Assembly (NCBI GenBank): GCA_030834095.1
Contig: JAURGA010000007.1
Coordinates: 1-54,114, forward strand
Reading direction: 5' to 3'
DNA: 54,114 bases
Source of the DNA: Candidatus Nanopelagicales bacterium
Lineage (GTDB): Bacteria; Actinomycetota; Actinomycetes; Nanopelagicales; Nanopelagicaceae
Positions within the stretch are counted from its first letter, which is position 1, and every line of letters starts with the position of its first letter. Shown here piece after piece: positions 33,287-54,114 of the stretch. The translations under genes were made by a program, and so were the position numbers. The notes under the pieces are model-generated. The model saw only the letters and a program-made list of their open reading frames with translations. It was not told the DNA's origin and ran no database searches.

Positions 33287-35023
<1,737 letters not shown>

Positions 35024-35033
35024 TTACCGCAAG

Positions 35034-36347
35034 TTATAGGACTGGCAGATACCGGTTTAATTCGTAGGCGCTTACTTGGCGGCAATAATCGGCCCACTCG
35101 GCCCGCTTATTGCGCAGCACATATTCAAATACATCCGCACCCAGAGCTTCACGAACCAGCGAACTTGTCTCCATCGCGATGATCGCTTCCTCCAGGTTTG
35201 TTGGAAGCAATTCTGGATTCTGCGTTGATTTAAGTTCGTATTTCTCTTCAATTCCTTTTAGACCAGCGGCTAAGATAACTGCGAATGCTAAATATGGATT
35301 GCATGCCGAATCTGGTGAACGAACTTCAACTCTGGTGCTGTTCTCCTTCTTCGGTTTGTAAGCCGGAATTCGAACTAGTGCACTTCGGTTGTTATGGCCC
35401 CAATCAACAAGTGCTGGCGCTTCACCGCCGCCACTTAAACGCTTGTAAGAATTGACCCACTGGTTTGTGATCGCGGTAAATTCGCGTGCATGCTTCAAGA
35501 TTCCTGCAATGAATGATCGACCTTCTGCCGAAAGTTGAAGGTCTGCACCCTCTTCATGAAAGGCATTCTCTTCACCTTTAAATAGTGAGAAGTGAGTGTG
35601 CATTCCAGAACCAGCATGATCGGTAAATGGCTTTGGCATAAACGATGCATGGAAGCCTTGATCAAGTGCAATCTCTTTAATTACATGGCGAAATGTCATG
35701 ATGTTGTCGGCAGTAGTAAGTGCATCGGCATCGCGCAGATCAATTTCTTGTTGTCCAGGTGCACCTTCGTGATGCGAGAACTCAACTGAGACACCCATAG
35801 CTTCTAGCATTGTGATTGCTTGGCGACGGAAATCATGTCCGACTGCAGAAGGTGTTTGGTCGAAGTAGCCAGCTGAATCAACTGGGATTGGGGCTACGTT
35901 ATCTTCTGGTGCATTCTTAAATAAGAAGAATTCCATCTCTGGATGTGTGTAACAGGTGTAACCCATATCTGCGGCTTTGCGCAGAACTCGCTTCAAAACA
36001 TTTCTTGGATCTGCTGCTGACGGGCTTCCATCAGGCATTGCAATATCGCAGAACATTTTGGCGGCGCCGGGGTTAGCAGTGCGCCATGGAAGAACTGTGA
36101 AACTTGCAGCATCTGGTTTTGCCAACATATCTGATTCAGTTATGCGGGCGAAGCCTTCGATTGATGAGCCATCGAAACCGATTCCTTCTTGAAATGCGTT
36201 CTCTAATTCAGCTGGTGCAATCGCAACTGATTTTAGGAAGCCGAGAACATCGGTAAACCAGAGTCGGACAAATCGAATATTGCGCTCCTCGAGGGTGCGC
36301 ATTACAAATTCTTCTTGCTTGCTTATTTCATCACTGTGGGAAGTCAT
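35034..36347 (-). CDS. glnA: Glutamine synthetase, type I, GlnA2-like
   Basis: A 437-residue glutamine synthetase. The N-terminus (VMRTLEERNIRFVRLWFTDVLGFLKSV) and GIGFDGSSIEGF are those of the shorter GlnA2 class. The catalytic metal region is MEFFLFK, EFSHHEGAPGQQEID, and FMPKPFTDHAGSGMHTH. The adenylylation tyrosine loop is not evident near the C-terminus. GlnA2 relatives in Streptomyces act as gamma-glutamylpolyamine synthetases, so ammonium assimilation is not certain. No Shine-Dalgarno or exact -10 signal is seen before ATG 36347. Confidence 0.9.
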   Translation of the reverse strand: MTSHSDEISKQEEFVMRTLEERNIRFVRLWFTDVLGFLKSVAIAPAELENAFQEGIGFDGSSIEGFARITESDMLAKPDAASFTVLPWRTANPGAAKMFCDIAMPDGSPSAADPRNVLKRVLRKAADMGYTCYTHPEMEFFLFKNAPEDNVAPIPVDSAGYFDQTPSAVGHDFRRQAITMLEAMGVSVEFSHHEGAPGQQEIDLRDADALTTADNIMTFRHVIKEIALDQGFHASFMPKPFTDHAGSGMHTHFSLFKGEENAFHEEGADLQLSAEGRSFIAGILKHAREFTAITNQWVNSYKRLSGGGEAPALVDWGHNNRSALVRIPAYKPKKENSTRVEVRSPDSACNPYLAFAVILAAGLKGIEEKYELKSTQNPELLPTNLEEAIIAMETSSLVREALGADVFEYVLRNKRAEWADYCRQVSAYELNRYLPVL

Positions 36348-50214: not shown

Positions 50215-50829
50215 TCAATCAATAAGAACGTTAGTTATCTTGCAGGAAGCTATTTTGGTTTTCAAGAATTCGCCTTCAATCGGATCTACCGTTAAATCAA
50301 AGCGCCACTTAACTGCAATCCAATTTGAAATGTACTTGCACTGGGCCCTCGTTGGAAGCCAGCCTGCAACATCCCGGTCACCTTTCGAACGGTTTAATCG
50401 TGCAGTTACAGCTAATAGCGAGCGTGGATCCTCTAAATCGTTTGCAAAATCCATTCTCTGTGTGGCGGTCCATGCCCAGGCGCCAGAGCGCCAAGCCTCA
50501 GCCAGCGGAACCATGTGGTCGATATCTAAACCAGTTGGATTCGTGAAAATTTTTCCATCATACGAACTTCGCCATCTGCCGCCAGTTAAATAGCATCTGG
50601 CACCTACTTTAGGCTTCACAATCGCTTCGGCAAGCAGAACTTCGTATCGGGTATTGCAACCATTCTTATCGGCATCTATCCAATGTTTAAATAGATTGCG
50701 CGAATATCCGCCAATCTGATCCGCTGCGATGGTGAGTGTAATTTTCTCTGCGGCCAAAGCTGGAGCAAGATTTAACGGATAAATCAGTATCGAGCAGAGT
50801 CCCAGGGCAATCCGCTTAGATGTATTCAC
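50215..50829 (-). CDS. Secreted HNH-family endonuclease (DUF1524/GmrSD-type)
   Basis: A 204-residue protein from GTG 50829. Signal peptide about 1-27 (KRIALGLCSILIYPLNLAPALA). The catalytic region reads GLDIDHMVPLAEAWRSGAW (the DH pair of the HNH beta-beta-alpha fold), then FANDLEDPRSLLAVTARLNRSKGDRDVAGWLP with the asparagine and final basic part, and CKYISNWIAVKWR. Extracellular DNA degradation, for nutrient scavenging or defence, is likely. Confidence 0.82.
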   Translation of the reverse strand: MNTSKRIALGLCSILIYPLNLAPALAAEKITLTIAADQIGGYSRNLFKHWIDADKNGCNTRYEVLLAEAIVKPKVGARCYLTGGRWRSSYDGKIFTNPTGLDIDHMVPLAEAWRSGAWAWTATQRMDFANDLEDPRSLLAVTARLNRSKGDRDVAGWLPTRAQCKYISNWIAVKWRFDLTVDPIEGEFLKTKIASCKITNVLID

Positions 50830-50897: not shown

Positions 50898-51629
50898 ATG
50901 ACTTATCAATTGCGTGACCTAACCGGAAAAGTTGTAATCATCACTGGCGCTACCGCAGGTATTGGCGCAGCCGCCGCTAGGGCTCTTGTCGAGAAGGGCT
51001 GCAAGGTCGTTCTAAATGCCCGAAGTGAAGAGCGTCTAAAAGGAATGGTCGCCGAACTCGGCGCAAATGCGATTTATGTCGCCGGAGATAGTTCAAATCC
51101 AGATATCGCTCGTAAAGTTGCAAAAGCTGCAATCGATACTTTCGGGACCATCGATACCATCGTTCCAAATGCTGGTATCGGTTATTACGGTTCAATCCTT
51201 GATCACAGCGATGAAGATGTAAATCGTATGATGCGCACAAATTACGAAGGCACCGTCCATATTATTCGCGCCGCTCTTCCAACACTGCTTGCAAAGAAAG
51301 AGGGCGATGTAATTATCGTTGCATCAGTTGCCGGATTCCGTGGTGGCGATAACGAAGCTATTTACACCGGAACCAAGCATGCCCAAGTTGGTTTCGCAGG
51401 TTCACTAGATCGCGAACTTCGTTCTAAAGGTGTTCGAGTTGCACTTGTTTGTCCTGCCGGTGTCGAAACCGAATTCGCACTTGGCTTTGGTCGCACCGCT
51501 GGTGAAGAAAAGCTAAAAACTTATCTGCGCCCCGAAGATGTCGCATTCCAAATCACAACAATAATGAGCCAACCACGCACTGTTCGATCACATATCTGGA
51601 CCTTGTGGTCAATGGGGCAAGACTCTTAA
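50898..51629 (+). CDS. Short-chain dehydrogenase/reductase
   Basis: A 243-residue classical SDR. Cofactor loop TGATAGIG near residue 17, NARSEERL after beta-2 (the arginine suggests NADP(H)), NAGIG, catalytic serine in VASVAG and YTGTK. Compatible with 3-oxoacyl-ACP reductase-like or sugar-alcohol enzymes; the substrate is unknown. It converges with the unknown membrane-anchored gene 7 bp away. Confidence 0.87.
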   Translation: MTYQLRDLTGKVVIITGATAGIGAAAARALVEKGCKVVLNARSEERLKGMVAELGANAIYVAGDSSNPDIARKVAKAAIDTFGTIDTIVPNAGIGYYGSILDHSDEDVNRMMRTNYEGTVHIIRAALPTLLAKKEGDVIIVASVAGFRGGDNEAIYTGTKHAQVGFAGSLDRELRSKGVRVALVCPAGVETEFALGFGRTAGEEKLKTYLRPEDVAFQITTIMSQPRTVRSHIWTLWSMGQDS

Positions 51630-51636
51630 TCAAGAA

Positions 51637-52044
51637 CTAGCCCTTAACTACCGCTTTCACAATCGCCTCGGGAGTTGCATGCTCGCCAACTTTTGCATCA
51701 ATGTTTGTTGGGATACCATTTTTCTGTGCAGCTGCTAAAAAAGCTAACTGTGCCGCAATATCAGTCATCCAATACATCGCTGATGGTCCAGCTCTATCTA
51801 GGATTCGAGCGGCCTGTTCGATGCGTGCATCTGAAAATTTCTCTAGATCATTCTTGTCATCTTCAATAATTGCCAATAAATATTGCTTGATCTCAAATGC
51901 AATTCCGGTTTTATCGCCATCATTTTCAATCAGTGACTTGAGTTCGGCATCGAGGCCACGCATCCGTCGGCCCTCACGCTTTTTGCGCGCCCGACGCTCC
52001 AAATATAAATAGACCAGCGCTGCGATAAATAGGAATTCGAACAT
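51637..52044 (-). CDS. Unknown protein with N-terminal membrane anchor, divergent from heliorhodopsin
   Basis: A 135-residue protein I do not recognise. It begins with a short hydrophobic segment (FEFLFIAALVYLYL), then a dense basic stretch (RRARKKREGRRMR), predicting the rest on the cytosolic side. The soluble part is helical: LDAELKSLIENDG, FEIKQYLLAIIEDDKNDLEKF, ARIEQAARILDRAGPSAMYWMTDIAAQLAFLAAAQ, and a final TPEAIVKAVVKG. AGGAG lies 8 nt before the ATG. It shares a 107-bp divergent promoter region with the heliorhodopsin gene. Confidence 0.7.
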   Translation of the reverse strand: MFEFLFIAALVYLYLERRARKKREGRRMRGLDAELKSLIENDGDKTGIAFEIKQYLLAIIEDDKNDLEKFSDARIEQAARILDRAGPSAMYWMTDIAAQLAFLAAAQKNGIPTNIDAKVGEHATPEAIVKAVVKG

Positions 52045-52138: not shown

Positions 52139-52144
52139 TACCCT
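52139..52144 (+). promoter_or_regulatory. Leaderless -10 (TACCCT) of the heliorhodopsin gene
   Basis: TACCCT ends 7 nt before the ATG at 52152; no Shine-Dalgarno is present. Confidence 0.5.
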
Positions 52145-52151
52145 CTTACTC

Positions 52152-52916
52152 ATGAGCAAAGAGATCACATCCCAAAGTCTTCGTAAAGTAAATATCTTCG
52201 CGGGCATCCTGCACCTGGCACAGATGGTGGCAGTCCTCGCACTCAGCAGCGATTTTTCATTGCCGATCAATGCAACTTATATGACTGGTCCACCTGGAAC
52301 TACCTTTGCCGAACCAGTCACACTCTTTGAGACTCCAATTGGTTTAACAGTTGCAATTTTCCTTGGTCTCTCGGCACTGGCACACTTCATCGTTGCAAGT
52401 CCACAATTTTTCCCACGATACAGCGCCGGCATAGCTGAGAAGCGAAATTATTTCCGCTGGGTTGAATATTCAATCAGCTCTTCAGTAATGATTGTTCTAA
52501 TTGCTCAAGTAACTGGTGTTGCCGAAATTTCAGCAATTATCTCAATCTTCGGCGTTAATGCATCAATGATTTTATTTGGTTGGCTGCAAGAGAAATACGA
52601 GAACCCAGGCAGTGGCGGTTGGCTTCCATTCATCTTTGGTTGCATCACCGGAATCGTTCCATGGGTCGCACTTCTCTTCTACGTTTTTGCAATTGGTGGT
52701 CCTGGTGATGCCTCTGCCCCCGCCTTTGTTTACGGAATTGTTTTGACCATCTTTATCTTCTTCAACTCATTCGCACTCGTGCAATGGTTGCAATACAAGA
52801 AAGTCGGAAAGTGGTCAGAATACATTCGCGGCGAACGCACATACATAACGCTCTCGTTGATTGCTAAATCTGCGCTTGCTTGGCAGATCTTTGCAAACAC
52901 TTTAATCCCGGTTTAG
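52152..52916 (+). CDS. Heliorhodopsin
   Basis: A 254-residue seven-helix protein, the usual length of heliorhodopsins. The retinal Schiff-base lysine is Lys239 in LIAKSALAWQIF. The counterion is Glu105 in FRWVEYSISSS. His21 (ILHLAQM), His78 (LAHFIV) and Asn136 (GVNASMILFGWLQEKY) match conserved residues of the family. From memory the whole chain closely parallels HeR 48C12, found in a freshwater actinobacterial fosmid. Heliorhodopsins have slow photocycles, no ion pumping shown for 48C12, and inverted topology (N-terminus in the cytosol). No retinal-synthesis gene lies in this window. The stop overlaps that of ribH. Confidence 0.95.
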   Translation: MSKEITSQSLRKVNIFAGILHLAQMVAVLALSSDFSLPINATYMTGPPGTTFAEPVTLFETPIGLTVAIFLGLSALAHFIVASPQFFPRYSAGIAEKRNYFRWVEYSISSSVMIVLIAQVTGVAEISAIISIFGVNASMILFGWLQEKYENPGSGGWLPFIFGCITGIVPWVALLFYVFAIGGPGDASAPAFVYGIVLTIFIFFNSFALVQWLQYKKVGKWSEYIRGERTYITLSLIAKSALAWQIFANTLIPV

Positions 52917-53365
52917 TTCAAAACACTAAGCGCTGCTATCGCGCTATCAAAGCCTTTATCCTCAAAACTGTCGGCGAAACCGGCGCGTGCATTTGCCTGT
53001 TCGATGGTGTCGCACATAAGAACCCCAAAACCGATTGGCTTAGAACGACTTAGCGAAACATCCATGATTCCTGCTGTTACACCTTGGCAGACATAATCGA
53101 AGTGGGGGGTTTCTCCGCGAAGAACAAGACCGACAACTACTGCAACATCAAAGCCAGAATCCAAGGCAAGCTGCGCCGCAAGTGGAAGTTCGAATGAACC
53201 AGAAACTTTGCGAACTTCAACGTTAGTGATGCCAGATTTTTCAAAACCACGAACTGCCCCATCGATTAACGATTGGCAAATCTCTGGATGCCATGATGCA
53301 CTAATAACTATAGCTTTTAGATTGCTGAAATTCTTCATCCCTAAATCTGGGGACTTTCCGGCCAT
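52913..53365 (-). CDS. ribH: 6,7-dimethyl-8-ribityllumazine synthase
   Basis: A 150-residue protein. Substrate motifs: ASWHPEICQSLIDGA near the N-terminus, VSGSFELPLAAQLAL, and VVGLVLRGETPHFDYVCQGV with the catalytic histidine (His in PHFDYV). It condenses 3,4-dihydroxy-2-butanone-4-phosphate with the ribitylaminouracil to lumazine. AGGAG lies 8 nt before the ATG, which shares one base with the ribBA stop. Confidence 0.95.
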   Translation of the reverse strand: MAGKSPDLGMKNFSNLKAIVISASWHPEICQSLIDGAVRGFEKSGITNVEVRKVSGSFELPLAAQLALDSGFDVAVVVGLVLRGETPHFDYVCQGVTAGIMDVSLSRSKPIGFGVLMCDTIEQANARAGFADSFEDKGFDSAIAALSVLN

Positions 53366-54114
53366 TAGATTTCTCCTAACGAGTGACTCAGTAAATCGCG
53401 CTTGGTTTCTAGATACTTACGATTAAATTCATTTGCAACAACCTGAAGTTTGCGACCCTTGTAGTTGATTCCAGAACCCTCGAAAGCCGCTAACTTATCG
53501 GGATTATTTGTAAGCAATTCAACTTCGGTGATTCCAAGTGCTCTAAAGATTTCAATCGCATCGCCATACGATCGCTCATCGACGCCGTGGCCAAGAGATA
53601 TATTTGCTTCCAAAGTATTCTGGCCAAGATCTTGTAAGGCATATGCGCGAATTTTTTCGCTAAGCCCAATTCCTCGGCCTTCGTGATCTCGCAGGTAAAC
53701 AACCAATCCAGATCCACGTTCTTCAATCTCGCTGATTGCCTGCATCAATTGTGGGCCACAATCACAGCGCAGCGAACCGAAGGCATCGCCGGTTAAGCAT
53801 TCAGAATGAATACGGCTTAATAAGTTTGTAGCGCTCAATTCTCCAAGTGCCAAGATTGCATGTTCGGCGCCATTGCGAGATGTAAAAGTTGTGATTCGCC
53901 AATCTTGATCGCTCATTGGCAATTTGGCCCATTGGAAATCAACTCTCTTTTTCACGCTCTTTTTCTCAACATGCGCCTTAATATCTTCAATAGTTATTTT
54001 CTTAATCGCGTGCTTTGCTGCAAATTCTTCTAGTGCTGCTCCCCGCATCATCGAACCATCGTCATTTACAAGTTCTGAAATAACTGCGACTGGATATGAA
54101 CCAGTTAATTCGCA
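53365..54114 (-). CDS. ribBA: Bifunctional DHBP synthase / GTP cyclohydrolase II (C-terminal part, cut by right edge)
   Basis: 250 codons are present; the 5' part lies beyond the window. The segment at the edge reads ELTGSYPVAVISELVNDDGS then MMRG, the end of the RibB domain. The RibA domain follows with the zinc cysteines in CLTGDAFGSLRCDCGPQ, the YLRDHEGRGIGL motif, and LLTNNPDKL. The two activities supply both early branches of riboflavin synthesis. Coupled to ribH by a one-base overlap. An apparent ATG start at 54051 is internal. Confidence 0.95.
   Translation of the reverse strand, partial: CELTGSYPVAVISELVNDDGSMMRGAALEEFAAKHAIKKITIEDIKAHVEKKSVKKRVDFQWAKLPMSDQDWRITTFTSRNGAEHAILALGELSATNLLSRIHSECLTGDAFGSLRCDCGPQLMQAISEIEERGSGLVVYLRDHEGRGIGLSEKIRAYALQDLGQNTLEANISLGHGVDERSYGDAIEIFRALGITEVELLTNNPDKLAAFEGSGINYKGRKLQVVANEFNRKYLETKRDLLSHSLGEI

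Follow-up and report, generated by a model that had tools for sequence, protein, structure and literature searches.

The heliorhodopsin locus

The DNA analysed here, referred to below as the window, is a stretch of 54,114 nucleotides that forms one whole contig of a Nanopelagicaceae genome (1.36 Mb in 53 contigs, 98% complete), and near its right-hand end it carries the heliorhodopsin (HeR) gene whose surroundings are listed in Table 1. On its 5' side HeR is divergent from a gene designated cl2, with 107 bp between them, and on its 3' side it runs into a convergent riboflavin operon. Both kinds of neighbour had been named in the original prediction, and both are found: the stop codon of ribH overlaps that of HeR and is followed by ribBA, while cl2, the predicted membrane-anchored gene of no known family, encodes a hydrophobic segment and matches no Pfam model.

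Table 1. Genes and elements of the heliorhodopsin locus; positions are those of the window unless contig C24 is named
Feature	Position	Strand	Remarks
leuA	33287..35011	-	directly after glutamine synthetase
glutamine synthetase	35034..36347	-	orthologue (75-80%) of the HeR-adjoining gene of Planktophila-type genomes; no HeR here
secreted-looking protein, GmrSD_C domain	50215..50829	-	conserved at this locus within the genus
short-chain dehydrogenase/reductase	50898..51629	+	HeR strand, cl2 in between
cl2	51637..52044	-	135 aa; N-terminal hydrophobic helix; no Pfam match; AGGAG ribosome site
TACCCT, putative -10 element	52139..52144	+	7 nt before the HeR ATG; leaderless-type start
heliorhodopsin (HeR)	52152..52916	+	254 aa, ATG to TAG; K239 retinal lysine, E105 counterion
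ribH, lumazine synthase (makes DMRL)	52913..53365	-	convergent with HeR; stop codons overlap
ribBA	53365..54114	-	GTP cyclohydrolase half; cut by the contig end
ribE	C24 585-1187		beyond the window, after ribBA
ribD	C24 1187-2212		beyond the window, after ribE
FeS-BCP photolyase	C24 3835-5307 (window 57808-59280)	+

The end of the window at 54114 falls inside ribBA, and its last 141 bases are an exact overlap with the first 141 of another contig of the same genome, C24; once the two are joined, ribBA reads through without a break and encodes 397 aa. The join is supported by two relatives (G156 and G138) in which the same order, ribH-ribBA-ribE-ribD followed by a photolyase gene, is found unbroken on one contig. 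Beyond ribD, C24 encodes a 360-aa protein that matches no Pfam model and then, on the plus strand, a 490-aa protein with a DPRP domain, which is the photolyase of Table 1. From the HeR stop codon to the start of this photolyase gene is a distance of 4.9 kb; the two genes lie on the same strand, and the rib operon between them is read in the opposite direction.

The heliorhodopsin gene and its product

The HeR protein matches the Pfam family PF18761 (Heliorhodopsin, the type 3 rhodopsins) with 327 bits (E 6e-98, cut-off 26.7) over positions 1-242 of the 242 in the model, and in a phmmer search of the PDB it matches the crystallised HeR 48C12 (entries 6su3 and 9ljj, E about 1e-110), to which it can be aligned without gaps at 164 identical residues in 246 (67%). 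In this alignment H21, H78, R102, W103 and E105 correspond to H23, H80, R104, W105 and E107 of 48C12, and N136, E147, S235 and K239 to N138, E149, S237 and K241. All of these are invariant across 103 Nanopelagicaceae HeRs, and they include the two residues that mark the family, the Schiff-base lysine of helix 7 (K239, aligned with K241) and the glutamate counterion of helix 3 (E105, aligned with E107). Judged by its sequence, the window HeR is a complete heliorhodopsin close to 48C12 in which every residue checked for the binding of all-trans retinal is present; it would be expected to bind retinal, and an inverted topology with a cytoplasmic N-terminus is assumed from the gap-free 67% identity. 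The original prediction of an intact, single heliorhodopsin gene with these key residues, for which alignment with 48C12 had been proposed as a check, thus holds: the protein falls inside the family, and the gene occurs once in the whole genome. An antisense reading of the region was rejected because it has stops throughout.

The comparison set consisted of 201 Nanopelagicaceae (acI lineage) genomes, 99 of which were classed as good. HeR is present in 119 of the 201 and in 66 of the 99, and since it is so common in this family the window gene must be regarded as an ordinary member of a known group. Elsewhere in the set a C-terminal remnant of HeR with a stop is found about 1.4 kb away from an intact copy (G167:C10:16591-16728), and a second HeR class, about 44% identical, was found at L038 (G019:C9), L092 (G008:C14), G012:C18, G049:C27 and G121:C17; in some genomes it shares a contig with the class-1 HeR. 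Four genomes have this second class near their FeS-BCP photolyase or ribH genes, with a distance to the photolyase of no more than 2.4 kb in G019 and G121. HeRs 67-97% identical to that of the window also occur in public metagenome-assembled records titled "Bifidobacterium breve" (loci L169, L184, L198, L216, L241, L242, L244, L245 and L247), which appear to be mislabelled lake actinobacteria.

Promoter and translation start

The hexamer TACCCT upstream of HeR, which had been read as the gene's own leaderless-type promoter, is identical in all eight same-locus orthologues of the genus, the window included, and is accompanied by no Shine-Dalgarno sequence. More generally, a TANNNT element 5-8 nt before the start codon is found in 60 of the 80 Nanopelagicaceae HeR genes that were scored, compared to 9 of 31 window genes. 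This pattern supports leaderless transcription of HeR from its own putative promoter.

The HeR genes linked to glutamine synthetase in another genus show the same pattern: all 16 that were scored (L041, L042, L081, L084, L088, L089, L091, L096, L097, L100, L102, L104, L106, L108, L109 and L110) carry a TANNNT element 6-7 nt before the ATG, which suggests that they are transcribed from their own promoters as well as from an upstream operon promoter of the kind proposed for AbHeR.

Retinal supply

A search of the genome for beta-carotene dioxygenase and carotenoid genes, which the original prediction had proposed, was productive. Genes for actinorhodopsin and Blh lie about 1 kb apart on another contig of the same genome (C40), with two lycopene cyclase halves between them, and a phytoene synthase gene is also present, adjoined by an ORF that was named as CrtI-like by eye from its sequence. 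The source genome therefore encodes most of the retinal pathway and, given its Blh, phytoene synthase and lycopene cyclase genes, probably makes retinal. Blh was undetected in 30 of the 66 good Nanopelagicaceae genomes that carry HeR, and these may consequently need retinal from outside or another enzyme. At one locus (L067, G133:C33), the sole case in the set of HeR beside retinal genes, HeR lies less than 1 kb from Blh and adjoins a pair of ORFs akin to the lycopene cyclase halves.

Heliorhodopsin neighbourhoods across the family

Neighbour genes were clustered and compared across 100 HeR neighbourhoods. At the eight loci of the window's own genus HeR adjoins cl2 while its 3' side varies, and on the HeR tree the window protein groups with the cl2-linked HeRs of its genus; contact with ribH is found in few relatives. 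Elsewhere in the family the recurrent neighbours are SOUL, DCC1, OYE, TspO and glutaredoxin proteins and the FeS-BCP photolyase. HeR adjoins glutamine synthetase and NAD synthetase at 17 of the 31 loci of one genus, where it is placed after glutamine synthetase and before leuA, and at none of the 72 elsewhere. The window carries the orthologous glutamine synthetase-leuA-recO-uppS run without HeR; its glutamine synthetase gene is joined directly to leuA and lies 16 kb from HeR, so that HeR is not adjacent to it. Linkage to glutamine synthetase requires four changes of state on the HeR tree, only one of which is forced by strongly supported branches, and the HeR alleles of these 17 loci fall at several places on the tree.

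In one published survey HeR is found in the company of redox genes, glutamine synthetase, DUF393 and GSDH, and zinc-finger HeRs adjoin photolyase or carotenoid genes (Bulzu et al., PMC8612252); another lists ten groups of neighbours, photolyase and SDR among them (PMC11109279). Neither of these two surveys mentions riboflavin. One paper that covers both heliorhodopsin and riboflavin presents them as two separate light-responsive gene sets. Within the part of the literature that was covered, the arrangement of HeR, rib operon and FeS-BCP photolyase may be previously unreported.

The FeS-BCP photolyase and the riboflavin genes

The C24 photolyase matches the FeS-BCP (6-4) photolyase PhrB (4dja) over its full length (E 7e-109) and also matches CryB (3zxs); it has the DPRP N-terminal domain and, as read off the PhrB alignment, the four Fe-S cysteines. 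Photolyases of the FeS-BCP (6-4) class use FAD, and DMRL is made by RibH. DMRL, the last intermediate before riboflavin, serves as the antenna in PhrB and CryB (PMC4619345), while other FeS-BCP members use other antennas (PMC9178010). The presence of rib genes beside an FeS-BCP photolyase therefore makes sense without any involvement of HeR, and the photolyase and ribH do co-occur among the 99 good genomes (genus-stratified P 0.004).

Among the same 99 genomes ribH was not found in 39, which suggests patchy riboflavin auxotrophy in Nanopelagicaceae, and within genera ribH tends to be absent where SOUL is present and vice versa (P 0.002). At one locus (L034, G176:C9, 2-2692) a SOUL heme-binding gene is part of the rib operon, where it follows ribH with a 4-bp overlap and lies between ribH and HeR, and at another (L162, 1692-3753) a SOUL gene overlaps the photolyase gene.

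Which neighbours track heliorhodopsin

Because proximity can be inherited, the association of HeR with its neighbours was evaluated both by distance and by presence or absence stratified by genus. Of the 82 genomes with both HeR and the FeS-BCP photolyase, 13 have the two genes no more than 10 kb apart, a count that includes the source genome after the window-C24 join; about 1.3 would be expected, and the cases are spread over six genera. The corresponding control counts are 0 of 93 for the class I photolyase and 1 of 54 for Blh; urease was rejected as a neutral control, being too rare (8 of 201 genomes). Close linkage is nevertheless a property of some genera only, since in 14 of the 16 single-contig genomes with both genes the two are 28-174 kb apart. 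Proximity to cl2 is stronger, with 24 of 48 genomes within 10 kb in seven genera.

Presence and absence rank the neighbours differently. The 99 good genomes divide 49/17/10/23 into those with HeR and the FeS-BCP photolyase, with HeR but no photolyase, with the photolyase but no HeR, and with neither (genus-stratified P 0.0012, or about 0.02 when corrected for 15 pairs), which is the strongest association among five HeR pairs, in tests that stratify by genus and not by full phylogeny and to which gene absence in draft genomes adds noise. In the same genus-stratified tests on the good genomes, no association with HeR was found within genera for ribH (P 0.81) or cl2 (P 0.24), and no co-occurrence with SOUL. 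Riboflavin synthesis and SOUL were accordingly rejected as partners, and cl2 was rejected as a dedicated one, since its strong proximity comes with no within-genus co-occurrence. The genes that touch HeR are thus likely to be passengers, and the photolyase is the better candidate. The proposal that the neighbourhood is a clue to function survives in part: it is upheld through the photolyase, beyond the end of the window, and fails for ribH and cl2, the genes in contact with HeR.

Proposed role and alternative explanations

The favoured mechanism, which is unproven, gives the window HeR a role in light-dependent repair. HeR would serve as a green-light membrane photoreceptor rather than a pump, and light would change its conformation so that it acts through a positively charged loop (K216, K217 and K220) on a soluble cytoplasmic partner. 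That partner would be the FeS-BCP (6-4) photolyase encoded downstream, for which the intervening rib operon would supply FAD and probably the DMRL antenna; on this reading the genes would make up a light-repair neighbourhood in which HeR helps photorepair, as has been reported for TfHeR and a CPD photolyase. In that precedent a class II CPD photolyase is bound by TfHeR and its repair increases about 3-fold (PMC9769723). We infer the partnership in Nanopelagicaceae from co-occurrence and proximity, and it has to be weighed against the organization of HeR and the photolyase as separate transcription units with the rib operon oppositely read between them, and against the different HeR neighbours of other relatives (glutamine synthetase, GSDH, OYE and TspO). 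HeR as a green-light photoreceptor or helper of photorepair, with this photolyase as its best-supported partner, is therefore advanced tentatively, at somewhat less than even odds. A further proposition is rather doubtful when taken as a whole: across Nanopelagicaceae, HeR would belong with the photolyase and the flavin/lumazine operon to a loose gene cluster that works as a light-repair module, and the green-absorbing HeR would control the action spectrum of a blue-light photolyase with a lumazine antenna, or widen it. If true, it would pair retinal with flavin in a way that is absent from the papers searched.

It is about equally possible, and likewise short of probable, that HeR is a general light sensor with another partner or partners, that light-related genes accumulate in a flexible, reshuffled region, and that the photolyase link reflects a shared ecology of sunlit water. 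HeR does occupy many sites in the family, with flanks that change even within one genus, its redox- and light-related neighbours are many (SOUL, DCC1, OYE, TspO and glutaredoxin), and the photolyase co-occurs with Blh as well (genus-stratified P 0.0095), as shared ecology predicts. What this explanation does not readily accommodate is the specificity of the proximity excess, which is shown neither by the near-universal class I photolyase nor by Blh, together with the lack of HeR-SOUL co-occurrence in the good genomes.

Regulation of glutamine synthetase, as by AbHeR of strain IMCC26103 and with adjacency not required, is unlikely to be the role of the window HeR. Glutamine synthetase is the one tested HeR partner in this lineage, in a context with NAD synthetase (PMC9529153); an orthologue is encoded 16 kb away, and the lysines by which AbHeR binds the enzyme (K216, K217 and K220; PMC9529153) are all present in the window protein. 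Every one of the 86 HeRs that are not linked to glutamine synthetase, however, has K or R at position 216, so this residue is no marker of such a role, and the loop lysines were rejected as a sign of this partnership; in addition, the adjacency is confined to the one genus described above, and the reported activation by AbHeR is modest (PMC9529153).

That cl2 is a dedicated HeR transducer is very unlikely: its adjacency to HeR in eight members of the genus and its proximity across seven genera are offset by the loss of co-occurrence within genera, by 14 genomes with cl2 and no class-1 HeR and 62 with HeR and no cl2, by several Planktophila-type genomes in which cl2 is remote from HeR and has the photolyase 2-3 kb away, and by differing translation starts (Shine-Dalgarno-led for cl2, leaderless for HeR). 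An AlphaFold model of cl2 (pLDDT 56, from 16 sequences) was too poor for a fold search. Light-driven ion transport like that of the viral V2HeR3 is most improbable, and no support was found for a pump: a marine algal virus heliorhodopsin transports protons, according to one report (PMC9448325), but the window HeR is highly similar to 48C12, the cellular heliorhodopsins studied do not pump ions (PMC9529153), and the source genome already has an actinorhodopsin pump.

The job of heliorhodopsin is still argued over, and the partners proposed for it have come mostly from the reading of single operons. A comparison of about 200 related genomes, made with controls, makes it possible to rank its neighbours. 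In Nanopelagicaceae the link to glutamine synthetase belongs to one genus, and the genes that touch HeR do not track it within genera, while the FeS-BCP photolyase does. HeR and this photolyase, from a group of highly abundant lake bacteria, are therefore the pair to test first. The window HeR gene is itself ordinary; it is its neighbourhood that yields a ranked and testable partner hypothesis.

Comparison with known systems

The closest characterized relative is 48C12, which has the same kind of host (freshwater actinobacterial) and which the window HeR resembles in all checked functional residues as well as in its gap-free identity; the window gene differs in being flanked by cl2 and the rib operon. 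The nearest glutamine synthetase of 48C12 is distant and of another type (PMC9529153). AbHeR, from Actinobacteria bacterium IMCC26103, shares with the window HeR its numbering (E105, K216) and the conserved charged loop, and an orthologue of its glutamine synthetase is encoded in the source genome; AbHeR, however, lies within the glutamine synthetase-leuA run, a site that is free of HeR here.

The Trichococcus flocculiformis locus resembles that of the window in having a photolyase gene encoded nearby. There, however, TfHeR and a class II CPD photolyase share one operon, whereas at the window locus the photolyase is of the FeS-BCP class and lies in a transcription unit separate from that of HeR; the precedent thus concerns another photolyase class, bound with a Kd near 22 uM. 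The C24 photolyase, known here from its sequence, resembles PhrB and CryB in its full-length match and its Fe-S cysteine motifs, and the rib operon that adjoins it makes DMRL, the known antenna of both.
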